From Seonamhaeicola sp. S2-3 (lineage in GTDB: Bacteria; Bacteroidota; Bacteroidia; Flavobacteriales; Flavobacteriaceae), in NCBI RefSeq assembly GCF_001971785.1, contig NZ_CP019389.1, forward strand, positions 755,001 through 819,000: 64,000 nucleotides of DNA, given 5' to 3'. Position 1 is the stretch's first letter. Each line of letters begins with the position of its first letter. The notes under the pieces are model-generated. The model saw only the letters and a list, made by a program, of their open reading frames with translations, searched no databases and was not told where the DNA came from. The position numbers and the translations under genes are program-made. Below are positions 42,494 to 56,240 of the stretch, piece after piece.

Positions 42494-43429
42494 ATGTCCG
42501 GAAAAAGGCTTCAAAGACATTATAAGGATCACTTAAGTGATTTTAAGCAATGGGAGCATAAGAGTCATGCTAAACAGTGGCTTGTTTTCCCTGAAAACTT
42601 AGGTTCTTATTTATCCATTGATGAGACAGCGCTGTCCAAGGGAGAGCTCTATACCATCATTACCAATAAGAAGGCCAAAGGAAAGAAAGGGGCTTTAGTT
42701 GGGATATTCCACGGAACTAAAGTGGAGCCTATTATCGAACAACTCTTGAAGATCCCAGCAAAGAAGCGTGCTAAAGTGAAAGAGATTACCTTAGACATGG
42801 CTAACTCTATGAAAACGATCTCCACTAAATGTTTCCCGAAAGCCATCCAAGTAACAGACAGGTTCCATGTACAGAAGCTGGCAATAGAGGCGCTCCAAGA
42901 TCTTCGTATCAAATACCGATGGGAAGCTTTGGATCAAGAAAATGAACAGATAAAGCTATCTAGAGCTGCCGACAAAGAATTTAAACCTGTAACTTTTTCT
43001 AATGGTGATAGCTCAAAACAACTCCTGGCCAGGAGTAGATATCTACTGTATAAATCCCCAGATAAATGGACTCCAAATCAGAAAGAGAGGGGACAGATAT
43101 TGTTTAATGAATACCCAGAATTAAAGAAAGCTTATGGACTTGTTCAAGGCTTGAGGAATATTTTTAACCAAGCCATAGATATTAAAGTAGCTTACACCAA
43201 ACTAGCCCACTGGTACAAAGATGTAGAGGAGTCTGGATTTAAGAGCTTCCAAACGGTAGCCAATAGTATTACTTTAAATTACCGCTCTGTACTCAACTAT
43301 TTTATAAACAGAAGTACTAATGCTTCAGCTGAATCCTTTAATGCCAAAGTAAAGGCTTTTAGATCTCAATTTAGGGGAGTCAGGAATACGGAATACTTCT
43401 TATATCGCTTGATTAAATTATATTCTTAA
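42494..43429 (+). CDS. IS transposase catalytic region (DDE_Tnp_ISL3 type)
   Basis: This 311-aa protein is the DDE catalytic part of the transposase. Acidic positions are seen in YLSIDETALSKGELYTI (first Asp/Glu), KEITLDMANSMKTI (second Asp) and NRSTNASAESFNAKVKAFRS (Glu). QVTDRFHVQKLAIEALQ is the conserved segment after the second Asp. The frame remains open upstream to 42437 and encodes a helix-turn-helix (ALSSQQLGHQYGMSGKRLQR), so the functional protein probably begins there through frameshifting. It mobilises its own element. Confidence 0.88.
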   Translation: MSGKRLQRHYKDHLSDFKQWEHKSHAKQWLVFPENLGSYLSIDETALSKGELYTIITNKKAKGKKGALVGIFHGTKVEPIIEQLLKIPAKKRAKVKEITLDMANSMKTISTKCFPKAIQVTDRFHVQKLAIEALQDLRIKYRWEALDQENEQIKLSRAADKEFKPVTFSNGDSSKQLLARSRYLLYKSPDKWTPNQKERGQILFNEYPELKKAYGLVQGLRNIFNQAIDIKVAYTKLAHWYKDVEESGFKSFQTVANSITLNYRSVLNYFINRSTNASAESFNAKVKAFRSQFRGVRNTEYFLYRLIKLYS

Positions 43430-43461
43430 AATGGTAAAAACCCAGATTTTGGACTTGATCC

Positions 43462-43479
43462 AGAATAGATGCTTTTATT
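43462..43479 (+). repeat. 18-bp direct repeat at right edge of the insertion sequence
   Basis: This is the second identical copy of AGAATAGATGCTTTTATT. Its core GAATAGATGCTT also appears, inverted, at 63123-63134 just upstream of the island integrase. The target sequence is therefore itself an integrase-proximal motif. Confidence 0.65.
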
Positions 43480-43507
43480 TGATATCAAATAAAATGCATA
43501 AAAACAA

Positions 43508-43541
43508 AAAACACTGATAATCATACAATTAACAGTGTTTT
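43508..43541. terminator. Hairpin next to the left att site
   Basis: AAAACACTG pairs with CAGTGTTTT, and the loop contains ATCATACAATT. A hairpin of the same design, with loop ATCACACAATT, lies at 63227-63260, 23 bp from the right att core; this one is 21 bp from the left core. It may be a bidirectional terminator that marks element ends. Confidence 0.55.
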
Positions 43542-43562
43542 GCTTTTTCCTATTACTAGGTC

Positions 43563-43578
43563 GTCGGGGTGGCAGGAT
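43563..43578 (+). repeat. Left att core (tRNA 3'-end direct repeat)
   Basis: GTCGGGGTGGCAGGAT is identical to 63284-63299. On the minus strand it reads ATCCTGCCACCCCGAC, the 3' side of a T-stem plus acceptor stem, best matching tRNA-Pro (acceptor 5' strand CGGGGTG). Only the 3' tip is present, so no functional tRNA is encoded here. Confidence 0.75.
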
Positions 43579-43636
43579 GATAACTAAACCGCCACTATAC
43601 AGTAAAATCAATACTTTCAGAAGTAGACTAAAACAG

Positions 43637-43656
43637 TGTGAACCGAATTGTAGACC
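43637..43656 (+). repeat. TGnnnACCGAATTGnnnACC repeat, copy 2 (left island end)
   Basis: TGTGAACCGAATTGTAGACC matches the pattern seen at 41956-41975 and 63161-63180. It lies 59 bp inside the left att core, a reasonable position for an arm-type integrase or excisionase binding site. Confidence 0.5.
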
Positions 43657-43756
43657 TATCTGTTAGTTTGAAATAGTATTATTTATCTGAACGTCTTACT
43701 ACAAATTTACAATTTTAACTCCATTAAAACCAGTCAATTTACATCAAATATTATGA

Positions 43757-43954
43757 TTAATCTATTAAATATTTGTTGACAATTTCTTCCTCAATTCCAC
43801 TGTATTCAACGAATTCTTTTATTGTGATAAATTGGTAAGATTCTTTTCCAAAGTAGTTTCTAATATCATTTAAAAGCTTACGCCCATAACGTTCACTACG
43901 TCCTGTGATACGCTGAATATCTTTTGGGTATATGCAAGCTCTTTTCTGATTCAT
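43757..43954 (-). CDS. Small HTH-like DNA-binding protein
   Basis: This 65-aa protein has two helical segments, PKDIQRITGRSERYGRKLLN and TIKEFVEYSGIEEEIVNKYL, that resemble a compact helix-turn-helix. It carries a strongly basic first half. Such small regulators often sit at the edge of mobile elements in flavobacteria. It is transcribed away from the four-gene cassette that starts at 44170, and the 215-bp gap between them holds two inverted repeats. It may repress that cassette or act as a recombination directionality factor. I cannot name a family. Confidence 0.65.
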   Translation of the reverse strand: MNQKRACIYPKDIQRITGRSERYGRKLLNDIRNYFGKESYQFITIKEFVEYSGIEEEIVNKYLID

Positions 43955-44023
43955 GATACTTTATGTATGCTTTATCTATGGATTAAACATAATTAATTTA
44001 TGATGATGGTGATGATGCGTTGT

Positions 44024-44061
44024 TAAAATGTTGACAACACGATAGTGTTATCAATATTTTA
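44024..44061. repeat. Imperfect palindrome upstream of the DUF5675 cassette
   Basis: TAAAATGTTGACAACAC pairs with GTGTTATCAATATTTTA around a GATA centre, giving about 14 matched positions per arm. It lies between the small HTH gene and the first gene of the cassette and could be an operator. Confidence 0.55.
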
Positions 44062-44065
44062 ATGA

Positions 44066-44101
44066 CGTTTTTGGTTTTATCGGAATGTATGACCAAAAAC
44101 G
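44066..44101. repeat. Inverted repeat CGTTTTTGG/CCAAAAACG
   Basis: Nine-base perfect arms at 44066-44074 and 44093-44101 are separated by 18 bases. The repeat is 5 bp downstream of the previous palindrome and 69 bp before the 251-aa protein gene. It may be a second operator, a leader hairpin or part of an origin. Confidence 0.5.
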
Positions 44102-44169
44102 GAATCTACTTTTTTACTGTAATACACAAAGTTACGTGATTTGAAATATTAATCAAAAAACGAATTATT

Positions 44170-44925
44170 ATGGCAAAACAAACTGGAATTATTAAACTAA
44201 AAGGAACTATTGGTGGTATTTCCTTTTACAAAACAACTGACGGACATCTAGCACGCGAAAAAGGTGGTGTTGATGCCAATCGTATTGCGAATGATCCTGC
44301 GTTTCAAAGAACCCGTGAAAATGGTTCTGAATTTGGTCGTGCAGGTAAAGGTGGTAAAGTATTACGAAATGCTATTCGTATGCTTTTGCAGAATGCAAAA
44401 GACAAACGAGTGGTTTCTCGTTTGACAAAAGATCTTTTGACAATTGTTAAGACTGACACTACTAATGAAAGAGGATTAAGAACACTTCAAGATGGTAATT
44501 TAAGCTTATTGGAAAGCTTTGAATTCAATTTGAATGGTAAGTTAGGAACAACTTTATTTGCTCCATTTACAAATGCATTTGACCGTGTTTCTGGTGATGC
44601 TACGGTTAACCTTGATGCATTTTCTCCAACGGTTAGGATTGCAGCTCCTACAGGAACAACCCATTTTAAGGTGGTAATGGGTGCTTCTGAATTGGATTTT
44701 GAGAATGAAACCTCAACATTTGAAAATGATGAGACTGCTATTCTTCCTTACACTGCTGCCGATACGGCTGCTATTGCCTTAACAGCTTCATTAACTGCTA
44801 ACTCAACTTTGCCTGTTGTACAAGTGCTTGGTATTGAGTTTTATCAAGAGGTAAACGGACAAATGTATGCACTTAAGAACGGTGCTTACAATGCTTTAGC
44901 TGTTGTTATTGTAGATACGCCGTAA
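44170..44925 (+). CDS. Unknown 251-aa protein of a phage-like cassette
   Basis: The N-terminal third is highly charged and conserved-looking (GIIKLKGTIGGISFYKTTDG, then HLAREKGGVDANRIANDPAF, then RTRENGSEFGRAG). The C-terminal part is Ala/Thr/Val-rich and probably beta-structured (LPYTAADTAAIALTASLTAN). I recall similar unnamed proteins in flavobacteria next to DUF5675 genes. There is no signal peptide, membrane segment or enzyme motif. A virion or particle subunit is a plausible reading given its neighbours, but this is inference. The DUF5675 gene follows after 2 bp. Confidence 0.7.
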   Translation: MAKQTGIIKLKGTIGGISFYKTTDGHLAREKGGVDANRIANDPAFQRTRENGSEFGRAGKGGKVLRNAIRMLLQNAKDKRVVSRLTKDLLTIVKTDTTNERGLRTLQDGNLSLLESFEFNLNGKLGTTLFAPFTNAFDRVSGDATVNLDAFSPTVRIAAPTGTTHFKVVMGASELDFENETSTFENDETAILPYTAADTAAIALTASLTANSTLPVVQVLGIEFYQEVNGQMYALKNGAYNALAVVIVDTP

Positions 44926-44927
44926 GT

Positions 44928-45350
44928 ATGGAATTAGTGTTGCATAGAGCTTATTTTAAAGAGGGTACCAACGGTACTCTCTTTACTTCTGATAGATTTC
45001 TTTGTCATACTATCGAATTGCCCTGGAACGATAACAAGCGAAACATTTCCTGTATTCCTGAAGGTGTTTATGAAGTTGAACCACGATTTTCTAAACGGTT
45101 TAAGCATCATTTGATTTTGAAGGCTGTAAAAGATAGAAGTTTTATTCTCTTTCATCCTGCGAATGATGCCCTAAAAGAGCTTCAAGGGTGTATTGCTCCA
45201 GTAACTTATTTAAGTGGTATTGGTAAAGGTGTTTATTCAAAAGATGCTATGCAAAAACTGTTGTCTTTGGTTTATCAGGCTAAAGACCGAAAAGAAACCA
45301 TTTTATTAACTATTAAATCACAGAATTATGAACATTGCAGAGCGTTATAA
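44928..45350 (+). CDS. DUF5675 family protein
   Basis: This 140-aa protein fits DUF5675: FLCHTIELPWNDNKRNISCI followed by PEGVYEVEPRFS, SFILFHPAND and LQGCIAP. The spaced His, Cys and conserved acidic residues, with a GCI motif after a His, recall L,D-transpeptidase-like or lysozyme-like cell-wall enzymes. No function has been established for the family. In many genomes these genes lie among phage or mobile-element genes. It overlaps the next small gene by 23 bp. Confidence 0.75.
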   Translation: MELVLHRAYFKEGTNGTLFTSDRFLCHTIELPWNDNKRNISCIPEGVYEVEPRFSKRFKHHLILKAVKDRSFILFHPANDALKELQGCIAPVTYLSGIGKGVYSKDAMQKLLSLVYQAKDRKETILLTIKSQNYEHCRAL

Positions 45351-45570
45351 AAAACCAACTCCAAAATTCTTTAAAACTTTACGAAATATTGGTATCGCTT
45401 TAGCTACTGCAGGTGGTGCTATCATAGCTGCACCAATAACAATGCCTGCCATTGTGGTAACCATTGCTACTTATATGACCGTTGCTGGAACTGTGGCCAC
45501 CGCAGTAAGTCAAGCGGTTGTTACTGATGATGAAAATTCCGAAACTGATGAGGATGACGATGGACTATAA
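45328..45570 (+). CDS. Small membrane protein, holin-like
   Basis: This 80-aa protein has a short basic N-terminus, two adjacent hydrophobic segments (NIGIALATAGGAIIAAPITM and AIVVTIATYMTVAGTVATAV) and a highly acidic tail (TDDENSETDEDDDG). The arrangement resembles small holins, though no family is recognised. It starts inside the DUF5675 gene and overlaps the following gene by 11 bp, so expression is coupled. Confidence 0.65.
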   Translation: MNIAERYKKPTPKFFKTLRNIGIALATAGGAIIAAPITMPAIVVTIATYMTVAGTVATAVSQAVVTDDENSETDEDDDGL

Positions 45571-45748
45571 CACCAAGTCTGCCATTGTTGGCGGTACTTT
45601 CTTTTCATCAATCGTTAATATTGGTGTTGAGGATTTGATTACTACTATTATTTTGGCTGTTGTTGGTGCTATCGTTAGTTTCTTTGTTTCTCTACTGCTC
45701 AAAAAGTTTATCACTTTTATCGGGGCAAAGTGTCGTAGGTGGAAGTGA
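45560..45748 (+). CDS. Small membrane protein, one or two TM segments
   Basis: I chose the ATG at 45560, which overlaps the end of the previous gene. The 62-aa product (MDYNTKSAIVGGTFFSSIVN onward) has a long hydrophobic stretch, TTIILAVVGAIVSFFVSLLL, and a basic C-terminus ending in KCRRWK. It is the last gene of the cassette and is followed after 32 bp by an intrinsic terminator. It may work with the preceding holin-like protein. Confidence 0.6.
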   Translation: MDYNTKSAIVGGTFFSSIVNIGVEDLITTIILAVVGAIVSFFVSLLLKKFITFIGAKCRRWK

Positions 45749-45780
45749 TTATTGATGTTAAGCGGTTGGAAAGGTAAATA

Positions 45781-45811
45781 AAGGGCATTTTCTAAAAATG
45801 CTCTTTTTTTA
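45781..45811 (+). terminator. Terminator of the DUF5675 cassette
   Basis: GGGCATTTT pairs with AAAATGCTC around a short CTA loop and is followed by seven T residues. It ends the four-gene cassette on the plus strand. Confidence 0.75.
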
Positions 45812-46282
45812 TGCGCGGTGTTGAGGTGGGTAAATGAAAAGAGTGATTCCCTGATAAGGGATTGAGCGAATGAAATGCATCCTACCGCAGACACTTGGCA
45901 AACATTAATAATTGCTGTAACCTACACCGCTGAAAAGGGTGGTGGGGAAAAGTGGCAAAGTTGTATGTTCTATACTTCAATTGAAGTTCGGAATTGAGCG
46001 TAGGAATGGCGGATATTTTACATAATGGCGTTATAGTACAGAAAGTGAATGAATGCTACTATAACTACCCGTTATGTAAACATAGCTTTGGGTAGTGTTT
46101 AAATTAATAGCTTTTGGCAAAGTGTAGCTCTTTACAGTTGTGAACGAGGTACGAGTAAGCAAGCTGTAATGTGCTGCATAAGCGTTGGCAATTTAAACAC
46201 TACATGAGCATGGGAAGCGGAACAAACCAAAAGACAGAGGATTTTTGCTTTTGCAACAAACTGGGTTTTGGTTTGTGGGGAT
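45812..46282. other. Palindrome-rich intergenic region
   Basis: No gene is visible in this 471-bp gap, but it is densely symmetric. It contains a perfect 14-bp palindrome (ACTTCAATTGAAGT, 45974-45987). A two-part cruciform follows: TTTACATAA at 46017-46025 plus GTTATAGTA at 46030-46038, against TACTATAAC at 46057-46065 plus TTATGTAAA at 46072-46080. GTAGTGTTTAAATT (46092-46105) is repeated inverted at 46190-46203, and ACAAACCAAAA (46222-46232) is repeated inverted at 46266-46276. The last could serve as the terminator of the STAND operon. Roles in transfer, packaging or replication are possible. Confidence 0.65.
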
Positions 46283-49200
46283 TTATACTGTTTTTTTATA
46301 GGTAATTACACACTCTCTTATTAAATAAGCTTCGCAATATCCTAAATCAATCATCTTGTTTAGGATATAAACAAAATCCTCTATCAAACTTTGACTTTCT
46401 TTAATTTCTTGTATATGGTTATTGAAAAGTACTTGAATCAATTTAACTGCATTTGACGAGTCTAAACTTTTGTAAATGCTATCATCCTCTTTTAAATTTT
46501 TCACTATTAAATTAATTCCTGATGGAAGAAAAACTTTTTCTCCAAAAGTAGAAAAAACTGAAATTATATGTGGCAAAGATTTAATTTTAAAGTAATCTAT
46601 AAACTCATTATACTGGGGTTTATAATTGACAAACCCTTTCCAGTTATTTGATTTAATTGACCAAAATCTTTCATTAACATCTAACAAAAGTTCTTTCACA
46701 AAATAAGACTTACTTGATTCTTTAACTTTGTTGAAAAGATAATACCATAATTCCCAAAAATGATTTCTATACCTTTCTACATCATTATCTTCATTAATTA
46801 AATCATCCAACCTTGTGACGGTTGTATTAAAAACACCTGTTATAAGCTCATACAAATCTTTAATATTGTGCATATTCTTGAACTCGTTATTTAGAATGGG
46901 ATTGCATAATTTATCTATTAACGATTTGCTGAAATTTACATCATTAAACAAAAGAACCTCGTTAAAATAAAAACGTAAGTCAACAAGAATTGTATAATTT
47001 GTTTTTCGAGATTTTCTTGAACGAGAATATGACAAATCATCTTCTAACTTTAAGTCTTCTAAAATTAATTCACACATTTTCAAAATGTAATTTTGAAAGA
47101 ACTCAATATTCACACTTGAAGTTATTAGAAGTAAAGCATTGTTTAAAAAATGTGATTCATACAATTCAAAAGACAAAGAAGAAGTTTCAGGCAAATCACT
47201 TTCGATTAATACGCTTTTAATAAATTCAAATTCCTTTTCTCTGTACCACTTTGTTTCTTGTTGGCTACGATATTGATTTACCCTATTTTCACTATAGAAT
47301 TTCGCATATTTTATTAGTACAATAATTAGTTTTTGAGCCTTTTCCGGTAATTCTTTACTGAAAATTTTTCTGAAATATTTTTGAAAATCTCTTATTTCGT
47401 GGTCTGCCAAATGACTAATGAGTAAGTATGTAACAAGTACATCAAGATCTTCCTCATCAACAACACCTCCACTGAATTTATATAGTAAATGAATAGATTC
47501 AATCGTTAATTGTTTTTCCAATATATTATACCCATACAAACGGCTAAAACTACCTCTATCATTTGTTTCTTTTATTATTTGTTCCAGTGCATCAATAATA
47601 GTTTCAATACAATACTCTTTTTGAACTTTACTTAATTTTTCATAAAATAAATTTAGGCCCAAAACAGATAATGTTACAGGTGAATCCCACATTGTATTCT
47701 CAATTTCATCTGAAGAAAAGTGTTTGAAAATAGTCTCCCATTCATCAAATGACATTTCAGATTTTTTTTCTTTAACCTGCCTTAATGAATGAGAATAGTG
47801 TAAAGAAAGATTATCATTCTCATTTTCTTTTGTAAAAGCTTCAACAGCATTAAAAATCGGTTCTGGATAGTTAACCTCTAACTGAAAAACCCCTTTTTTT
47901 TCATCAACAAATGATGTCTTGTATTTTCTCACATCCATTTCAGTAATAGCCTTTTCCCAAAAAATATCATCACTACAATTTTCATAAAAACAATCGAATA
48001 TTACTTGTAGTTCTTTATTAAGCAAACCATTATTTATTTGATAATGAAGTATAAACTCTCGAAGACCTCGTTGATATTTCTTTCTGTGTGGAAGTCTATT
48101 AAATTCTCCTTTTTCTTTTTGGGCATAAGAAATTCTTTGATCATAAATTGCCGTAGCGGAATGTTCTCTTGTTGCTCTATGTGTATCCCATTCATAAAAC
48201 TCTCTAACTCTTAAAATTGGTAAAATGGTATCCCCAAATGCTTTTGAATAAGCTATAAATACACTGGTTAAAACACTAATTATTGTAGCTGAATTTGAAT
48301 TTTCTAATAAATAATTGGTTATTGTCTTTAATAACTTATTGTCAGGAACTTCAAATCGAGCAATTTCTAATAAATATTTTTCAAGGCTAATTAAAATGGA
48401 TTCAAGCAAGTAATGAGTTACAGTTGTGCCTCTATACGCATTCCATAAATACTCATTTCCATAGATTGTCTTTACATTACCGTCATTTAACATCATTTTA
48501 ATTTCCTTTAGTTCCTCTTTTACACTAAAATCAGATTCTTTATAAGATGATGCTATATAATTAGTGAACTCACAAATAAAAGCTACAGCCTTTAAAGGAT
48601 GATATCTTAATAAATTAAAAACAAAAGTTTTATAAATCCCAGACGGAAAAAAATCGAATCTAGTCTTTGTTATACCCCAGGCATCTTCTCTTTCTTTACG
48701 TTCCGGAAAAGAAAATCCAAAAGGGCCTTCTCTTTTAGGTAGACTTTCAGGTGGTATACGTTTCCAATGTTTGTTCGCTATGCGAATTAATGTATCCGGT
48801 AATTCTTTAATTAGTAAGCCATTTCTAACACCACCTATAGCCTTTTTAATTACCAATTCACTAAAACCTTTTAATCTTCCATACTCATCTGTATTTGAAC
48901 TACATTCTTCAATGAATTTCTTTAATTCATCTTTACAATAAGACGCAAAACCAAAAAGCATATATACAAAGCTTGTCTTTTGATAGTCGTTTTTTGATGA
49001 ATAACCCCAAAGGTCACTTCCATCGTACATTTCTTTTACATAATGAAAAACCAATATATTTGCTGCTTCTATCTCTTTAATAGAACAAAGCTTAAATTGG
49101 AAAAGAAATTTATATTCCCAGTCCAGTAAAAAATTTGAAATAGACTTCCTTATACTTTCTATTTCTAAAATATTTGAAGATAAAAAGCATAACATTTCTT

Positions 49201-51325
49201 CCCAACAAGAACCTACAGGAAATAAAATGTCTTTAGAGTTTTCTTTGTTAAAACTATATTCCCTACAAGTAGTTCTTATAAGCAGAATGCACCTATTCAA
49301 AAACATACAATTGTTTTCCAATAATTTTGAAGAGAAATATTTGAAAAAAGAACTGCAATCATCTGACCTAAAAACAGCTGTAAGTATTTCATCTGTCCAA
49401 TATGTAGGAATCGAGTCGTCTTCTAATGTCAAAGAAATTAAGTTTGCTACTGTATCAATATCATTAGTAAGTAATTCTTCAATCCATAACCTAAAAGCTC
49501 TTCGTAAAGCTGGTTGGTTACCAAGTTGATTAAATAAATCCGCTTTATTAGAAAGTTTATTTTCAATTGAGGTTATATATCTTATTAATGCCCAATCTTC
49601 TAAAATATCGTGAGAAGGGGAAAACTGAAATTTATTACCACTTCTAATTATTATATTATCACTTTCCAAAAGCTCTACCGCTTCATAATCTATTTTGTCA
49701 TCTTCTGGTTCAAAAAATAATCTCATATTTATTGCTCTCCCTACAGCTATATGCATAAAAGTAAGGCCTCTTTTTCTTGGAAGACCATTCTTTGTTACAG
49801 TTGAATTTTCTATAACTTCATTCCATAGTATCTCTTTAAATTCTGAATAACTAATATCACTCGATATGTTTTCACTTTCTTTTATTGCTGACACTGTAAA
49901 ATCAAGATATTTAGGACTTCTTAAAACTTCATTTATTTTACTATTTGAAAGGAAATTGGTTAGTTGGGGAAATTCATTTCTTATTAGCTCTATTTCATCA
50001 TCATTTAAAAGAGGTATATCGACAACATTTATCTTTTCAGAGTCAATACCGAACTTTTGCTTAATCACGTTAACCGCATAAGATCTACAGGTCATTAAAA
50101 GTTTTATACCCTTATTTTCAGAAATAATTGATAATAATTGTTTAAAAGCAGAATCGGGTTGTGCTTCCAATAATTTTTCTGCACTATCAATTACAATAAT
50201 TTTATTTGGAAGTGTTGATATTAAACTAAATAAATCGATTAAACTATGGTTTATTCCAACTTCACTGAATACTTGAGCTAAAGAAGTCTTATTAAGTTGG
50301 TCTGCCTTAAAAATTATAGGGACTGTATCGAATAACTCTCCACTTAAAATGTCTTTTACAATCGAAGATTTGCCAACACCAGGATAACCTGTAATAATTG
50401 AAATATCAGATTGATTTAAAGATTGTATTATTGACTTTTTAATGTTTGCCCTATCTATATGAAAGCCTTTTATTGTGTTTTTGAATGGCTTTAAAAGTAG
50501 TTCTCCATCTTGGTGTATTTTTTTAAATGAAGAATAAGCGTCATAAGATATAGATAAATCAAAATACTTATGTGGTTCAAAATTCTTTAAATCATCATTT
50601 GAAATACTACCTCCATTTCGATTATATGTAGCAACTTCGTTAAGAATCACACTCCAAATTTCTTTAGGGGTAGTTACTACATCTTTAGACTTTGATAATT
50701 GAATAAGATTAAGCGTATAGTTTTCATCTGTACTGGCTTCAGCAGTAAAATCATAAGCCAATAAATGAAAGCATTTTAAAAACTGGAATAACTCTTCTTC
50801 AGTAATAGTTTCTCCTTTAGCTAGTGTTAGACTTTCTTCAAAGATATCAAGAGCAGCTTTCTTTATTTTCACTCTATTAACTTCAGAGAAGAAATCTTCT
50901 GAATTACTCTGTTTATAAGCTATTTGGCATAAATAAGCTATATGATTTTTATCATTATTAGTTAGGCTAGATTTTATAAGGAACATTTTATCATTTTGTT
51001 TATCAAAATGACTGGTATTATTAAAATCATCCCAAAAAGCTTTTATTACTTCTAAAAAAACTTCATTCTTTGACGAAATAGGAATATTATACTTTATTTG
51101 AGAAATTACTCTTTTGGAAATGTTATTTTCTTCAATCTTAAAGAACAAATCATCTGTTTGATATCCTTTATTTTTATTTTGAAATCCAATTTCAATAATT
51201 TTACCATTAGGAAATGAAGGAATAACACCATTAATCATCATTTGTAATAAAAATGATGATTGCACATAGTTTTCATAGTCAAAACCGCCTCCACCTGTTT
51301 GAAATACACTTGCTTCTCCAGCCAT
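46283..51325 (-). CDS. Nuclease-STAND NTPase, Avs-like anti-phage protein
   Basis: The 1680-aa protein reads as three parts. Residues 1 to about 200 look like a PD-(D/E)xK nuclease of the Cap4/DUF4297-like type: GFDYENYVQSSFLL, GYQTDDLFF (Asp58/59), then SQIKYN with Gln76 and Lys78. Residues about 280-560 are a P-loop NTPase: Walker A GYPGVGKSS from residue 313, Walker B IIVIDSAE with Asp380, and MTCRSY as a sensor-like motif. The rest, more than 1000 residues, is a helical repeat array typical of STAND sensor regions. The ATG directly follows the stop of the nucleotidyltransferase gene (TAAATG). The domain order resembles Avs-type phage-sensing ATPases. Confidence 0.8.
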   Translation of the reverse strand: MAGEASVFQTGGGGFDYENYVQSSFLLQMMINGVIPSFPNGKIIEIGFQNKNKGYQTDDLFFKIEENNISKRVISQIKYNIPISSKNEVFLEVIKAFWDDFNNTSHFDKQNDKMFLIKSSLTNNDKNHIAYLCQIAYKQSNSEDFFSEVNRVKIKKAALDIFEESLTLAKGETITEEELFQFLKCFHLLAYDFTAEASTDENYTLNLIQLSKSKDVVTTPKEIWSVILNEVATYNRNGGSISNDDLKNFEPHKYFDLSISYDAYSSFKKIHQDGELLLKPFKNTIKGFHIDRANIKKSIIQSLNQSDISIITGYPGVGKSSIVKDILSGELFDTVPIIFKADQLNKTSLAQVFSEVGINHSLIDLFSLISTLPNKIIVIDSAEKLLEAQPDSAFKQLLSIISENKGIKLLMTCRSYAVNVIKQKFGIDSEKINVVDIPLLNDDEIELIRNEFPQLTNFLSNSKINEVLRSPKYLDFTVSAIKESENISSDISYSEFKEILWNEVIENSTVTKNGLPRKRGLTFMHIAVGRAINMRLFFEPEDDKIDYEAVELLESDNIIIRSGNKFQFSPSHDILEDWALIRYITSIENKLSNKADLFNQLGNQPALRRAFRLWIEELLTNDIDTVANLISLTLEDDSIPTYWTDEILTAVFRSDDCSSFFKYFSSKLLENNCMFLNRCILLIRTTCREYSFNKENSKDILFPVGSCWEEMLCFLSSNILEIESIRKSISNFLLDWEYKFLFQFKLCSIKEIEAANILVFHYVKEMYDGSDLWGYSSKNDYQKTSFVYMLFGFASYCKDELKKFIEECSSNTDEYGRLKGFSELVIKKAIGGVRNGLLIKELPDTLIRIANKHWKRIPPESLPKREGPFGFSFPERKEREDAWGITKTRFDFFPSGIYKTFVFNLLRYHPLKAVAFICEFTNYIASSYKESDFSVKEELKEIKMMLNDGNVKTIYGNEYLWNAYRGTTVTHYLLESILISLEKYLLEIARFEVPDNKLLKTITNYLLENSNSATIISVLTSVFIAYSKAFGDTILPILRVREFYEWDTHRATREHSATAIYDQRISYAQKEKGEFNRLPHRKKYQRGLREFILHYQINNGLLNKELQVIFDCFYENCSDDIFWEKAITEMDVRKYKTSFVDEKKGVFQLEVNYPEPIFNAVEAFTKENENDNLSLHYSHSLRQVKEKKSEMSFDEWETIFKHFSSDEIENTMWDSPVTLSVLGLNLFYEKLSKVQKEYCIETIIDALEQIIKETNDRGSFSRLYGYNILEKQLTIESIHLLYKFSGGVVDEEDLDVLVTYLLISHLADHEIRDFQKYFRKIFSKELPEKAQKLIIVLIKYAKFYSENRVNQYRSQQETKWYREKEFEFIKSVLIESDLPETSSLSFELYESHFLNNALLLITSSVNIEFFQNYILKMCELILEDLKLEDDLSYSRSRKSRKTNYTILVDLRFYFNEVLLFNDVNFSKSLIDKLCNPILNNEFKNMHNIKDLYELITGVFNTTVTRLDDLINEDNDVERYRNHFWELWYYLFNKVKESSKSYFVKELLLDVNERFWSIKSNNWKGFVNYKPQYNEFIDYFKIKSLPHIISVFSTFGEKVFLPSGINLIVKNLKEDDSIYKSLDSSNAVKLIQVLFNNHIQEIKESQSLIEDFVYILNKMIDLGYCEAYLIRECVITYKKTV

Positions 51326-52171
51326 TTAATTTACTTTTTCTATTATTCCAAGTTTAAGCTCTTCCAAAATTTGAACAGCATATTCTAAATCCCATTCTTT
51401 TTTACTTACCCATTGTTTTGCAATTGCTGAATTTTTGGCATCCGAAACATTATCGTTTAATGTGTTTAAAATTCTGCTTTTAATTGCTTCAGATACATTT
51501 AAATATTGACTTGCTTTTCTGCCCAAAACTCTTGCGGCTATTTTAAGTTGATCTAAATCCTCCTCTTCAGGAAAGGTGTCGTTGTGATGTTCTACTATTT
51601 CATCAAAATTCAAGTCAAAATAATATTCGATGATTCTTAAAATATCGTATAAATCACTATCGCGTTCTTCAGGTCTGTCGCTCCAGGCAATTAGTTTTAA
51701 AATAACCATTCCTGATAAGGATGGGATTTGTACTGACTTTTCTTCTATCTGTACAGTTTCTGGATTTTGCAATACCTCGCTAAAACCTAAAACGTGTAAA
51801 TCGGTATAACGTTCATTGAAATTGATTGTGAAATTTTCTTCAATTTCTCCAAAAGGCAATAAATCTATGACTATATTAAATTTATCGTTGTAGAGTGTCC
51901 AGGGTGCTTCTACTTTATTAAAGCCGTAGTTGCTCAATTCTTTTACTATTGTTTCAAACTCTTGTAGGGAAGCTATCATTATGGCAAAATCTATATCTTT
52001 TGTACCTCTACTTGGTTTTATTCCTTTCTTTAAAATCTCTAAAGCTATAGCACTTGCACCAATAAGATAATAAGGCACGTTTAGTTTTACCATTACTTTA
52101 TCAATACAGTCAAAAACTTCTTTAAAATAGGGAATTGAAAGCTGTTTATATGTTTGGTTGGATATACTCAT
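51326..52171 (-). CDS. AbiEii-like nucleotidyltransferase toxin
   Basis: This 281-aa nucleotidyltransferase-fold protein has the motifs of AbiEii/AbiGii toxins: YYLIGASAIALE, the metal-binding RGTKDIDF (Asp59 and Asp61), VIDLLPFG with the third acidic residue, and a downstream KLIAWSDRPEERDSDLYDI motif. Type IV toxins of this group modify tRNA or other acceptors with nucleotides and arrest growth. I chose the ATG at 52171, which lies inside the antitoxin gene (26-bp overlap). The STAND gene begins directly after its stop. Confidence 0.82.
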   Translation of the reverse strand: MSISNQTYKQLSIPYFKEVFDCIDKVMVKLNVPYYLIGASAIALEILKKGIKPSRGTKDIDFAIMIASLQEFETIVKELSNYGFNKVEAPWTLYNDKFNIVIDLLPFGEIEENFTINFNERYTDLHVLGFSEVLQNPETVQIEEKSVQIPSLSGMVILKLIAWSDRPEERDSDLYDILRIIEYYFDLNFDEIVEHHNDTFPEEEDLDQLKIAARVLGRKASQYLNVSEAIKSRILNTLNDNVSDAKNSAIAKQWVSKKEWDLEYAVQILEELKLGIIEKVN

Positions 52172-53141
52172 CAAAAATTAATTTAGCTGTTTCTTTGCTT
52201 CTTTTATCATCATTAATAATCAAATCGGTATAGACCAATTCTGCTGGTGCTATATTATTAAAGTCCATTGTCCAAAACTTATCATATACCCAAATATTAC
52301 CCTCATCATCTGGTAATAATCTATAATTCATCATTAAATCTCTTGTGGTTTCGTTGGTGTACAAAGTGAAATTTTCCGGACGTAGATGGTTGGTCATAAT
52401 ATCTCCAGCAGGTTCACCTCCCCAAACCGTTTTTTCATTGTTTAATTGTAATGCTCTCCAGTCTTGATTTTCATTTTGAAATCTGAATCGTTGCTTGAAT
52501 ATTGTGGGTTTTAATGTTTGTTCAAATTCTGTTATCCATTTGTTTAACAGCTCTTGATAATTGTTAATCACATATTCATTTTTATTTAGTTTTAAGATGA
52601 AGTTGTTTTCCAACAATCCATTTATAATCAACGGAATATTACCTAACGCAACATTGGTAATATCAGCAATTTCTCGTTGCGTTTGGTTTATAAGTTGAGG
52701 ATGCAATAAAAAGTGAAATACTACTTTTAACCCTGTTTTTGTAAAAGCTCGATTTCCTTTTTCTTTTTGATTTTTGGCAGTTTTATTTGTATCGATATAA
52801 AGGAAAACACCTGCTTTATTAATATACACATTACCATTACCCTCAAGATAATTTACTTGATTTTCTCGCAGTTCTTTCTTTACCTTTGGATATAATTTTT
52901 CCGCTACCAACAAAAAGTTTTCAAACCTGTTATTGTATTCAATTATGTTAAATAACTGGTGGTTTTTAACGTCTTTCTTAACTTCAACAACCATTAAAAT
53001 ATTTTGATTGTTTATTATTAAGTCTAACTCTCCATCGATACCAATATCATTATTGTAATCCATATTTTTCCAGTTCCAAATTATTGGAATGTCCTTTTCT
53101 AAATTATGAATTGCATTATTTAAAATATCTATTTCATTCAT
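52146..53141 (-). CDS. AbiEi-like antitoxin/transcriptional regulator
   Basis: I chose the ATG at 53141 over a TTG nine bases upstream. The 331-aa protein contains an N-terminal nuclease-like fold (DGELDLII with Asp40, then VVEVKKD with Glu53 and Lys55). A winged-helix segment (TQREIADITNVALGNIPLII) and a C-terminal domain follow. This fits the AbiEi type IV antitoxin family as found in Bacteroidota, in which the winged helix represses its own promoter. It is first in the operon, as in classical AbiE. Repeats over its promoter are the likely operators. Confidence 0.78.
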   Translation of the reverse strand: MNEIDILNNAIHNLEKDIPIIWNWKNMDYNNDIGIDGELDLIINNQNILMVVEVKKDVKNHQLFNIIEYNNRFENFLLVAEKLYPKVKKELRENQVNYLEGNGNVYINKAGVFLYIDTNKTAKNQKEKGNRAFTKTGLKVVFHFLLHPQLINQTQREIADITNVALGNIPLIINGLLENNFILKLNKNEYVINNYQELLNKWITEFEQTLKPTIFKQRFRFQNENQDWRALQLNNEKTVWGGEPAGDIMTNHLRPENFTLYTNETTRDLMMNYRLLPDDEGNIWVYDKFWTMDFNNIAPAELVYTDLIINDDKRSKETAKLIFDEYIQPNI

Positions 53142-53157
53142 TATTGCCAACCTTTTT

Positions 53158-53216
53158 TGTTCATTATTTTTAAATGTTCATTATTCGTGAACAAATGTAA
53201 AACATGAACAAATGTA
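53158..53216 (-). promoter_or_regulatory. Operator-promoter of the AbiE-STAND operon
   Basis: Two direct copies of TGTTCATTATT (53158-53168 and 53175-53185) are followed by two copies of TGAACAAATGT (53188-53198 and 53205-53215). Within each pair the spacing is 17 bp. The second type contains the -7 box TACATTTG when read on the minus strand (53192-53199 and 53209-53216). Factor binding to TGTTCA/TGAACA half-sites would therefore cover the promoter. The remaining 250 bp up to the ATPase gene hold no gene. Confidence 0.65.
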
Positions 53217-53467
53217 TAAAAAGTATTTGAGAATAAGTAGGGTAGTAAGAAAATAATAGTTTGCTTTTGGTAATTAAGCTTTGGCTAATTTTGAGTTTTT
53301 TGCCAAAGTTTAATTTGCGATTTACTACAAATTGTGTAGTTGATTGCAAATAAAATATTATTAACGAGGGCTATTTTTAAGATTTTTTGCCCTCGTTTTG
53401 AAAACGAAGGTAATATTTACCTTGGTGTATTAATGGGAAATTATCGGTGTTGTGTCGGTGTTGTGCA

Positions 53468-54130
53468 TTATTTTCTCTTGTCAATACTTTGCTCATTAAA
53501 AGCTATCAGATTAAACAACTGTCTCATTCTTGAGCGGACTCGATTTCCATATCTTTCTTCTAATTCTTGTGCATTTAAATTTGTAGTGGCGTGGGTTCTG
53601 ATTTTTCTTTGAAGAAATAAATCGTAACGAGATAAAAGGATTTCACCCATAACATTGCAGTCTTTACCAAAATGTCTTCCGGTTGTTTCTACGCCTAAAT
53701 CATCAAAACAGTAAAAACTACTATTACCATATTCTTGAATGGTTTTGTAGCCGATATTGTTAAAAGCAAATGTGATGTTTCTTGCTGGAATTAGTTCATA
53801 AGGTTTATGATGTGGCACAATGTGTCTTAATAATTTCATTAAGCTAGTTTTACCACAACCTACTGGACCAGATAATAAAATGCCTTTGTTTGGGTCGATG
53901 TTTAGTTTTTCGCAAGCTTCAAAATCACGGATGAAATAGATACATAATTTGTAAAGTACCACCTCATCTTCTTCGTAAATTTTAAAATTTTTACCGAATA
54001 ACAATTTTCCTTTGGCATCGAGGTAGATTAATATTTTTTGGAAATCGTAAAGAATGTGATTATCTTTTAGTTTGCCAAGTTTGTATTGCACCCCTTTTTC
54101 AATAATGATATGTGGTTGCTCATTTTTCAT
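53468..54130 (-). CDS. DnaC/IstB-like AAA ATPase
   Basis: This 220-aa ATPase has Walker A GPVGCGKTS (residues 88-96), Walker B FYCFDDLGVE and an HATTNLNAQELEERYGNRVRS-type sensor region (quoted in part: TTNLNAQELEERYG). Such proteins load the replicative helicase in plasmids, phages and integrative elements. The wHTH protein gene upstream overlaps it by 4 bp, so the two probably form the island's replication initiation pair. An IstB-like transposition helper is less likely because no IstA gene is nearby. Confidence 0.82.
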   Translation of the reverse strand: MKNEQPHIIIEKGVQYKLGKLKDNHILYDFQKILIYLDAKGKLLFGKNFKIYEEDEVVLYKLCIYFIRDFEACEKLNIDPNKGILLSGPVGCGKTSLMKLLRHIVPHHKPYELIPARNITFAFNNIGYKTIQEYGNSSFYCFDDLGVETTGRHFGKDCNVMGEILLSRYDLFLQRKIRTHATTNLNAQELEERYGNRVRSRMRQLFNLIAFNEQSIDKRK

Positions 54131-54663
54131 AAAGGCTCATTGTAGTTTTTATTTTTAGTAGTCTTTAGGTTGTCTTGATTTGAGACAGTTCGATTATGTT
54201 TTGTACTGTTTTCAGAATCATTAAAATTTGATTTTTTAAAATTCCCCTGTTTATTAATGTTTTTGTTTTTTATAGTTTGTATATGTTTATATATAGGTAC
54301 CAGTGCTTGTCCACTGCTTGTCTCGATTTGAGTAGAGTTGTGTACCACTAATTGTCCAGAACTTGTCCCGAATTTGAACATCTTAATTTTGCTTCCACGA
54401 TACGGATTGTGTGATGGGAAATACACGATATATTTCCAATGGTTTAATTCCTTGATGCATCTGTGATAGGTAGATTTAGAGCCTATTTTAGATAGTTGCA
54501 TAACCTCATCACGGTTTATGAAAAACTCTTCTAAAAATCGGTTTGAATTCCACAACTGGAATAAGGCTATGTATAAGCTTATGTGAGTTGGGTTTAAACG
54601 ACTGTCTTTTGAGAATTGGACAAATACCTCATTGAGATGTTTAATGTAATTTACTTCTTGCAT
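54127..54663 (-). CDS. Winged-helix replication initiator-like protein
   Basis: This 178-aa protein has an N-terminal winged-helix or replication-initiator-like domain (LNPTHISLYIALFQLWNSNR, then RDEVMQLSKIGSKSTYHRCI, then KELNHWKYI) and a low-complexity Asn/Lys/Ser tail from about residue 120. Its placement directly before a DnaC-like ATPase gene is that of phage and element replication organizers (DnaD-like). It does not resemble Rep relaxases. It is separated from the excisionase-like HTH gene by a 298-bp palindrome-rich gap. Confidence 0.65.
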   Translation of the reverse strand: MQEVNYIKHLNEVFVQFSKDSRLNPTHISLYIALFQLWNSNRFLEEFFINRDEVMQLSKIGSKSTYHRCIKELNHWKYIVYFPSHNPYRGSKIKMFKFGTSSGQLVVHNSTQIETSSGQALVPIYKHIQTIKNKNINKQGNFKKSNFNDSENSTKHNRTVSNQDNLKTTKNKNYNEPL

Positions 54664-54961
54664 ATTAGTACATCAGATTTAAAGCCAATGCGCCAGCCGG
54701 CCTCTTCGCTAATAACATCCACTGGATGTTTTTTAATCGCTCGATCCTATAATTTACTTTTTGCATATTTTTTACCCTTTCATTTTGCCTTGATGCAAAA
54801 CGAAACAAAAAATCAAGACTTCATATTAATTCCTTGAAAATCTGCATCAATGATTTATCATGCGCATTGCAACCGCTTCGCTTCGGCAATGCTCCATTGC
54901 CTATCACTACTCATTGACTTGATTTTACTACAGAATTAATATAGATGTCATTTTTTCTTCT
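54664..54961. other. Non-coding region with inverted repeats, possible origin or oriT
   Basis: No gene is visible in this 298-bp gap. It contains AACATCCA/TGGATGTT (54714-54730), followed by T residues, and TTGATGCA (54790-54797) paired with TGCATCAA (54843-54850). CATTGC/GCAATG forms a GC-rich hairpin (54865-54891), and ATATTAATTC (54823-54832) pairs with GAATTAATAT (54933-54942). The position beside replication genes suggests an origin or transfer origin, but nothing specific identifies it. Confidence 0.4.
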
Positions 54962-55240
54962 TTAGAATTTGTTATGGATGCGGTTTTCTTCCATTACTTT
55001 TAAAATTTCTTCGTAATCGTAATAGATGACTCCACCGACTTTTGTGTAAGGTAGTGTGCCATTGATACGAAGATTTTGTAATGTTCCTGGTGAGATGCTT
55101 AACAGGTCGCGAACTTCTGGTGATTTGAGCCATTTTTTAGGCGCGAATCCTGATTGATGATTCATAATAGCTTTGATGTCTTCCAGTAATTCTTCTTTGA
55201 ATTGTTGAAGATCTTCTGTAGTGATAATTGTTGCTGCCAT
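54962..55240 (-). CDS. Excisionase-like helix-turn-helix protein
   Basis: This 92-aa protein has the HTH_17/excisionase arrangement: KKWLKSPEVRDLLSISPGTL followed by QNLRINGTLPYTKVGGVIYY and a short C-terminal helix. Members bind DNA with a MerR-like winged helix and act as recombination directionality factors or regulators in CTnDOT-type elements. It is encoded 145 bp downstream of rteC on the same strand, a common pairing in Bacteroidota islands. Confidence 0.85.
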   Translation of the reverse strand: MAATIITTEDLQQFKEELLEDIKAIMNHQSGFAPKKWLKSPEVRDLLSISPGTLQNLRINGTLPYTKVGGVIYYDYEEILKVMEENRIHNKF

Positions 55241-55385
55241 AATAAAGTTTTTAGTTTAAAATAGCTACCTCCTCGAACTCTCATTGTCGGCAGCAGCTAT
55301 TAATGTGATTTGACTTTCGTTTGGCAAATATGAAGTGAATTAATTAAGCTTGTTCACAACACGGATTACGTTGTGTACGATTTAT

Positions 55386-56240
55386 TTAAACACCTTCATC
55401 AGTGTCTTCCATCCGTTTCAAAAGGTTATCGTTTAACGATGAAAGAAACTTAGCTCTGTTGGTTTTTCTTGTTCTAATTTCTAGGAATGTACGGCGATAT
55501 TGTCCTAAATTTATTTCGAAAATATTCTCAAAATATTCTGCTATATCTTTTAGATCTGCTGCTCCATTATTAAAAACACCTTCAGTATGTAATGCGTACA
55601 AAAGCTCAATTAATGCCACTTTTGGACTTGTCCAAATCATTTTCAAGTTCGGTTTGCGTTGTGATTTTTCTCCATTATCTTTATTTTCAATTATTACTAA
55701 TTGATTTTCTAAATACAATTGAATTAAATCGTTAGCCAATACTTTGGCTACCTTAAAATCATGGGATGTAGAAAAGCTCGTATCTGCTTCAAAATAAGAA
55801 TTATCTAGAGACATTTTAATATCGAACTTACTACGTAAAAAGTATTTATGATCTAGATAGGTACTCCCTGAACGATAGTATTTGTAAAACTCTAACTCAT
55901 TATCGAAGAAAGCTTTTAATTTAACCAGCTCATTGTTATAATACTTTTTTACAATACGATTTCCTCCATTTGGTCTTTTCATTTCAATTTTGAAAAGCGT
56001 ATTATAATAAATTAGTTTAGAGGTAAACTGTGGCTTTATTTCTTTAAAAAATTTAATTTCTTCTGCATCAGTTTTAAACTTTGTTTTTGACAGAAGCGTC
56101 CTTAATGAGTTTATTGTTTTTAAAATCACTTCTAAAGCCTTTTCACAACGAAGATATTGGTTATCTATTTCTAAATCTATAAAACTTAATTGATCGTTAA
56201 GTTTAGCAAGTAGGTTTGTGATTTTTTGAGTCAATTTCAC
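55386..56240 (-). CDS. rteC: RteC family regulator
   Basis: This 284-aa protein matches RteC, the regulator of excision genes in CTnDOT-like elements. Landmarks are the long N-terminal helix with FKTDAEEIKFFKEIKPQFTS, then YYRSGSTYLDHKYFLR, and a C-terminal WTSPKVALIELLYALHTEG followed by YFENIFEINLGQYRRTFLEI. The start is a GTG at 56240. In CTnDOT, RteC activates excision genes; here it is next to an excisionase-like HTH gene, consistent with the same role. Confidence 0.88.
   Translation of the reverse strand: MKLTQKITNLLAKLNDQLSFIDLEIDNQYLRCEKALEVILKTINSLRTLLSKTKFKTDAEEIKFFKEIKPQFTSKLIYYNTLFKIEMKRPNGGNRIVKKYYNNELVKLKAFFDNELEFYKYYRSGSTYLDHKYFLRSKFDIKMSLDNSYFEADTSFSTSHDFKVAKVLANDLIQLYLENQLVIIENKDNGEKSQRKPNLKMIWTSPKVALIELLYALHTEGVFNNGAADLKDIAEYFENIFEINLGQYRRTFLEIRTRKTNRAKFLSSLNDNLLKRMEDTDEGV

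Follow-up and report, generated by a model that had tools for sequence, protein, structure and literature searches.

An AbiE-type pair with a predicted 53-bp operator precedes an Avs4-related gene and other, unrelated defence gene sets

AbiE systems of type IV, known from Streptococcus agalactiae and lactococci, place AbiEi ahead of a DUF1814-type nucleotidyltransferase and carry inverted 23-bp repeats in their promoter (PMC3985639, PMC7319586). In the systems studied, AbiEi represses its own operon, the toxicity of AbiEii is reversible (PMC3985639), and S. agalactiae AbiEi binds two inverted 23-bp repeats lying 3 bp apart (PMC7319586). Avs1–4 are summarised as nucleases responding to terminase, portal or Ksap1 (PMC12931631). 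There is precedent for regulators found repeatedly next to defence systems of different kinds: BrxR/CapW regulators of the WYL type and RptR are defence-associated repressors, diverse systems occur near 48% of BrxR homologues (PMC9122601), and RptR represses an island with DarTG2 within a type I RM system (PMC12255303).

Here we describe an operon of Seonamhaeicola sp. S2-3 in which an AbiE-type pair runs directly into a large STAND gene. It lies in the window, by which we mean the whole stretch of 64,000 nucleotides analysed (contig NZ_CP019389.1, 755,001 to 819,000), and the source genome is a single contig of 3.75 Mb. The original prediction saw here a composite anti-phage system in which the toxin pair guards or backs up the STAND sensor. 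The locus shares gene order and inverted repeats with AbiE type IV, and differs in that its repeats are 7 bp apart instead of 3, its AbiEi has an extra N-terminal nuclease-like stretch, and its operon continues into a defence gene. The predicted repressor belongs to another family than BrxR/CapW and RptR and, unlike them, would be repressor and antitoxin in one protein, accompanied by its own toxin.

Layout of the three-gene operon

TAnnTTTG is the −7 promoter consensus of Bacteroidota, and a matching element stands at the head of the operon. The features, in window coordinates, are as follows.

53209..53216, minus strand: predicted promoter element TACATTTG, matching the −7 consensus
53158..53210, no strand: predicted 53-bp palindromic AbiEi operator, two inverted 23-bp repeats TGTTCA-N11-TGTTCA 7 bp apart, 0 mismatches
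52146..53141, minus strand: AbiEi-type antitoxin/regulator, 331 aa from ATG; PF09952 (AbiEi_2) E 3.6e-25, in the C-terminal part
51326..52171, minus strand: AbiEii-type nucleotidyltransferase, 281 aa from ATG; PF08843 E 1.8e-7
46283..51325, minus strand: Avs4-related STAND NTPase, 1680 aa; PADLOC, NCBIfam and PDB 8dgf matches, P-loop near residues 313–320
53468..54130, minus strand: context, DnaC-like ATPase upstream of the operon
55386..56240, minus strand: context, RteC-family protein of the surrounding mobile region; PF09357 E 1.8e-84

A renewed check of the reading frames bears out the predicted layout: all three frames are open on the minus strand, head to tail; AbiEi and AbiEii overlap by 26 bp when read from their ATG codons at 53141 and 52171 (the ORF list had started AbiEi at a TTG at 53150); and the AbiEii stop at 51326 directly abuts the STAND ATG at 51325. 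The assignments to AbiEi-like, AbiEii-like and STAND families hold as well. Position 53216, taken as the end of the operon, is the first base of the predicted promoter element, which overlaps the operator.

The pair can be filed as AbiE-type, a class in which AbiEii is toxic and AbiEi neutralises it with no physical contact between the two. AbiEi precedes AbiEii in one operon, and seven AbiEii residues of the nucleotidyltransferase motifs (G38, T57, D59, D61, K159, D173 and D176) are invariant in 47 of 47 sequences. The 53-bp site, with its two inverted 23-bp repeats over the predicted promoter, resembles the published AbiEi operator. The three-gene operon cannot be so filed, being not bicistronic but joined to a third gene at 0 bp. 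The N-terminal stretch of AbiEi is nuclease-like, and its D/E...ExK signature keeps the E in 39 and the K in 46 of 49 sequences; its matches to Hjc and YraN are weak and below the cut-offs of both. It lies ahead of a conserved stretch near residues 145–195, noted by eye.

The third protein, judged by its profile matches, is an Avs4 relative (AVAST type 4). It matches PADLOC Avs4 at E 4e-133 and PDB 8dgf, an Avs4 structure, at E 1.9e-62, and its residues 262–1673 align to positions 157–1578 of the 1579-position NCBIfam profile NF041815 (E 8.2e-145), so that the ATPase and C-terminal part correspond over most of the length. The score of 484 bits falls short of the NCBIfam cut-off of 1500, and the protein further differs from Avs4 in being encoded by the third gene of an operon and in its N terminus: residues 1 to about 257 are unmatched by the Avs4 models of PADLOC, NCBIfam and PDB 8dgf, including their N-terminal nuclease domain, and contain a D...QxK-like motif seen by eye. 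In genome G001, two contigs (L052 and L053) each bear part of a STAND relative, 537 aa of its N-terminal and 1197 aa of its C-terminal portion; the two parts lie near contig ends and may be one gene cut by assembly.

The surroundings (42494–56240) appear to be a mobile region with RteC, HTH_17, DnaC-like ATPase, DUF5675 and ISL3 transposase genes; no integrase was recognised among the genes scanned there. A search for an empty site in congeners found one flanking gene in three of six and the other, weakly, in one of six. Close relatives of the locus occur in Algibacter, Tamlana and Aequorivita (Flavobacteriaceae), and L002 and L004 have a 220-aa gene at the same upstream distance (317 bp) as the DnaC-like ATPase of the window.

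The pair as a header of different gene sets

Co-occurrence of the three genes in other genomes, on which the original prediction depended, was found. The STAND query matched 13 of 397 family genomes, and in all four with at least 84% identity (G000, G153, G319 and G383) an AbiE pair lies directly upstream. L003 and L005, from named genomes, show pair and STAND gene too, which brings the same order to six distinct loci (L002 is the same place as G153, and L004 as G319); in each of them AbiEii is followed by the STAND gene at 0 or +5 bp. The general tendency of defence genes to cluster speaks for chance neighbours in a defence island; the recurrence of one tight junction in six loci, and of pairs tightly joined to the next gene in 19 of 47 cases, makes this reading very improbable, and chance adjacency was set aside. 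The pair was absent from the stretches fetched from all nine other genomes, whose STAND matches were weaker or partial. In G225 a STAND relative (40% identity) and an AbiE pair lie on separate contigs, which counts against a mobile unit.

We tabulated loci from AbiEi query matches in overlapping draws of family (27 of 397), class (21 of 395) and order (11 of 395) genomes, from relatives of G322 and from L002–L005. This gave 50 AbiEi genes, 47 with AbiEii; short or broken matches in G251, G258, G516, G558, G846, G970 and G1068 were left out. An ORF counted as cargo if it was on the same strand as the pair, lay no more than 20 bp from it and encoded at least 150 aa. By this measure 19 of 47 pairs carry cargo, at −34 to +17 bp (11 of 24 in the family draw alone), counts that are not an unbiased census because L003 and L005 came through the STAND query and L128 through the relatives of G322. 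The other 28 of 47 have no such ORF within 20 bp, so the pair does not require cargo. The cargos are:

Six loci: Avs4-like
L062: Avs3 (E 1e-253)
L061: nSTAND3
L060: ApeA, an HNH gene and two genes without assigned family
L128: KAP/PifA-like
L069: shortened methylase, PP2C, a helicase matching MkoA and one gene without assigned family
L073: methylase, specificity protein, PglW/mad6-like kinase and mad7-like protein
L074 and L077: as L073 in all four genes
L130: as L073 in three genes
L131: as L073 in four genes, the last cut by the contig end
L129: PP2C and TOTE primase-helicase
L107: type I restriction
L119: specificity domain, on a short contig

Three loci fell outside the count: L075, where an 87-bp gap precedes a type IIG enzyme and a Shedu protein; L106, whose next gene starts at +37 bp and matches no family; and L109 (+65 bp). 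The 582- and 1345-aa cargo proteins beside ApeA in L060 (6731–8479 and 9283–13320) matched nothing in Pfam or PADLOC at E 0.01, and their genes may represent new defence functions. The PADLOC candidate PDC-M21 touches this set twice: PDC-M21B weakly matches these AbiEii proteins (window E 2.5e-4) and PDC-M21C the PP2C proteins that L069 and L129 have as cargo, but the candidate implies no Avs cargo.

In the clade of the window (AbiEi at least 63% identical), all ten pairs run into a large gene at −4 to +7 bp, and five cargo types are represented: Avs4-like, Avs3, nSTAND3, ApeA and KAP/PifA-like. On the upstream side all ten gaps are at least 33 bp, so no gene stands as close there as the cargo does. 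A pair specific to the STAND gene is ruled out by pairs that head other cargos or stand alone. Of the composite system originally predicted, the conserved arrangement of an AbiE-type pair with an Avs-type STAND gene therefore stands, and the pair's belonging to the STAND sensor does not: because the same kind of pair leads unrelated defence operons, also stands alone, and accompanies none of the nine weaker STAND relatives, it is better described as a general header than as part of one composite sensor. This header, of about 1.9 kb, comprises the promoter-like element, the 53-bp operator, AbiEi and AbiEii, and is shown by the sequences to lie directly before one of many unrelated defence gene sets, with the predicted operator only at its front.

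Cargo exchange is visible between close relatives. Two loci whose AbiEi proteins are 94% identical carry different cargo. L060 and L128 belong to congeneric species; they share 90.8% DNA identity from −69 to +1829 and then carry unrelated cargo; beyond the cargos homology resumes for 156 bp at 86.5%. L069 and L077 are sisters on the joint tree (AbiEi 85%), and the first cargo gene of L069 (5019–6293) matches residues 1–401 of the L077 methylase at 93% identity and stops there. As the methylase start is common and the rest differs, the break falls within a cargo gene; the L069 methylase seems to have been severed by an exchange, and judging from this alignment the exchange point is not always the AbiEii stop, which counts against a mobile unit. 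Avs4-like cargo occurs in two tree groups, divided by a weakly supported branch (0.676).

The predicted operator and proposed control of the operon

The operator follows the plan TGTTCA-N11-TGTTCA-N7-TGAACA-N11-TGAACA over 53 bp, with a central gap that is sometimes 8. No shuffle out of 100 reproduced the mismatch-free site of the window. Scanning the AbiE loci with up to four mismatches, one base of spacing play and central gaps of 5–9, we find the site upstream of 45 of 50 AbiEi genes (gap 7 in 37, gap 8 in 8); the same scan finds it before none of 47 AbiEii genes and before none of 47 next genes. Of 41 AbiE operators parsed, 36 have the TAnnTTTG element at their start. By eye, some pairs (L108, L109, L111, L113 and L114) have two tandem operator-like repeats with a central gap of 8.

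A scan of 31 genomes with at most three mismatches and fixed spacing returned 17 sites, 16 of them at AbiE pairs. Among the 17 genomes that have a pair, 15 gave a match, and G373 and G222 carry the 8-bp variant instead; among the 14 that lack one, a single genome matched. This genome, the congener G213, has no AbiEi match; its site (L141 9560–9612, 1 mismatch) is part of a type I restriction operon, flanked by hsdM and an OLD-type ATPase gene (gene names by eye), and counts against a mobile unit. Among eight plasmid AbiE loci fetched, the operator is present in Spirosoma and Diaphorobacter (0 mismatches), Synechococcus (1) and Fibrella (2), where the best of 400 shuffles had 6; the Prevotella locus fits only as 12-7-11 with 1 mismatch, and Vibrio gigantis, Paraburkholderia and Crinalium showed no site clearly above shuffles. 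The source genome of the window has a second AbiE pair (L067 13207–15031, about 3.72 Mb) without cargo, its AbiEi about 34–36% identical. Its operator has the same plan with 1 mismatch, so cross-talk between both AbiEi proteins is possible.

From the site's position and the S. agalactiae precedent, we propose that the two inverted 23-bp repeats are the binding site of AbiEi, which would repress a shared promoter. Toxin and STAND protein would then come from one transcript and be kept low because AbiEi represses that promoter. If AbiEi left the operator, through phage shut-off, titration or decay, toxin and sensor would rise together. Avs4 in particular senses portal, and by analogy the STAND protein would detect a phage protein such as portal, whereupon its N-terminal domain would fire. 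The AbiEii nucleotidyltransferase would arrest growth and would also make the unit costly to lose. That one AbiEi-repressed promoter drives toxin and defence cargo is the best-supported element of this proposal on sequence grounds; we infer from it that AbiEi would gate the defence gene, and joint action of pair and STAND protein against phages would follow as a further inferred step. A further promoter may lie inside AbiEii. Taken as a whole, we consider the operon probably a mobile defence unit with an exchangeable payload under an AbiEi-controlled shared promoter.

The pair might instead serve mainly to prevent loss or shut-off of the defence operon, with regulation of the cargo as a by-product. 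On such loss AbiEi would run out before AbiEii and the cell would be arrested; AbiE can stabilise plasmids (PMC3985639) and an ICE (PMC11062541), and many cargos behind one header suit a generic guard. We regard this as possible rather than probable, as the more direct signal in the sequence is the operator that heads the entire operon. The guarding or backing up of the original prediction thus stays one live reading, next to shared AbiEi control, for which the sequence evidence is more direct.

The header might also be a mobile promoter module alone, in which landed cargo uses the promoter of the pair and the jobs of toxin and cargo are unrelated. By blastn, homology between the window and L060, L061 and L062 begins at about −70 and is lost near the AbiEii stop, as such a module would have it, and loci with cargo (L073 and L074) and without (L078 and L067) have AbiEi proteins 91–96% identical. 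The identifiable genes joined to the pair are of defence type, however, and not a random gene sample, and we think this reading unlikely.

The 53-bp site in viral DNA

Scanned for exact copies, IMG/VR has the site in at least 120 stretches, at least 90 of them distinct sites. Control scans gave 3 stretches for gaps 10-7-10 and none for a scrambled hexamer. Central gaps of 6, 8 and 9 gave 1, 13 (7 distinct) and 0 stretches, the order seen in AbiE operators. Among the IMG/VR matches there could be mobile DNA of other kinds; this does not apply to the named isolates with the site, which are flavobacterial phages. Cellulophaga phi17:2 and phi4:1 (0 mismatches) carry it between tRNA-His and tRNA-Leu, Tenacibaculum pT24 has it with 0 mismatches, Polaribacter P12002L with 1, and Maribacter Panino with 0 as 11-7-12. 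Phages phi19:1 and Nekkels_1, with partial sites only (4 mismatches), and Phocaeicola BV200P1, with none, were not counted.

Among the matches listed, one of 120 has AbiEi beside it (L167), as does none of the 13 gap-8 stretches. PF09952 was found in none of 39 viral records, some of which may be fragments, and otherwise only in L167, the fortieth, included because it bears AbiEi. A peptide-pattern search for AbiEi in viral contigs gave one candidate stretch, and tblastn with the window AbiEi at E 1e-5 found none in 50,697 phage records. A phage-encoded AbiEi as the binder was rejected on the null results from these 39 records and the tblastn search.

Among the matches listed, the promoter element accompanies 5 of 90 viral sites, 6 of 90 lie inside an ORF of at least 100 aa, and 19 of 90 lie 0–9 bp from a tRNA gene. 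Twelve of these 90 listed sites fall between two tRNA genes with at most 9 bp on either side, a count of non-independent cases since some of those phages are evidently related. In phage tRNA arrays such as L144, L206 and L275 (4101–4153), the site nearly exactly fills the gap between two tRNA genes, other gaps there being 0–10 bp or unrelated sequence. No gene family occurs within 4 kb of more than 6 of the 90 listed sites, and a common phage neighbour gene was discarded as an explanation. A hairpin or RNA element was likewise rejected: the 11-bp arms of the phage sites match at 3.8 of 11 positions against 3.6 for random pairing (5.1 in the same test of 21 AbiE sites), so that a protein-bound DNA site fits better. 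Scattered as they are, mostly without promoter or common neighbour, the viral sites look like binding sites as such, and AbiEi may bind them.

We tentatively propose that several groups of phages carry promoterless copies of the AbiEi operator that would bind AbiEi in infection, as decoys or as a trigger, making the header a phage-DNA-responsive switch before interchangeable effectors. As decoys, the copies may disturb the AbiE-led defence operon to the benefit of the phage, a reading favoured by the presence of the site in unrelated phages. As a trigger, they may pull AbiEi off its own operator and turn on toxin and defence cargo, which is favoured because titrating a repressor-antitoxin should raise the toxin. 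The two arguments pull in opposite directions.

It is also conceivable, if short of probable, that the phage sites are bound by another factor with the 11-7-11 plan, such as a phage protein or a different host regulator. The stretches bearing the site span a GC content of 0.22–0.60, hosts are known for only a minority of them, 39 of the 40 viral records have no AbiEi_2 domain (the exception having been chosen for it), and G213 likewise combines the site with a genome devoid of an AbiEi match. Set against such a factor are the concentration of the bacterial sites at AbiE pairs (16 of 17), viral spacing variants that track those of AbiE operators (a gap of 7 is by far commoner than 8, and 6 or 9 are almost absent) and the scarcity of shared neighbour families around the listed sites.

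Among CC-licensed papers, surveyed by title and the start of the abstract, none concerned an AbiE pair heading Avs operons or AbiEi sites in phages, and the accessible part of a BREX survey (PMC12839542) does not mention AbiE. What keeps defence genes silent before an infection is still largely open. In these loci, many unrelated immune systems appear to share a front end through which a single regulator family, with its recognisable 53-bp site, controls them, and the site offers a searchable mark for new defence operons. The header allows a direct test of whether a toxin–antitoxin pair acts as regulator, guard or both, and the copies in phage genomes, mostly without AbiEi or promoter, make a link between phage DNA and defence regulation testable.
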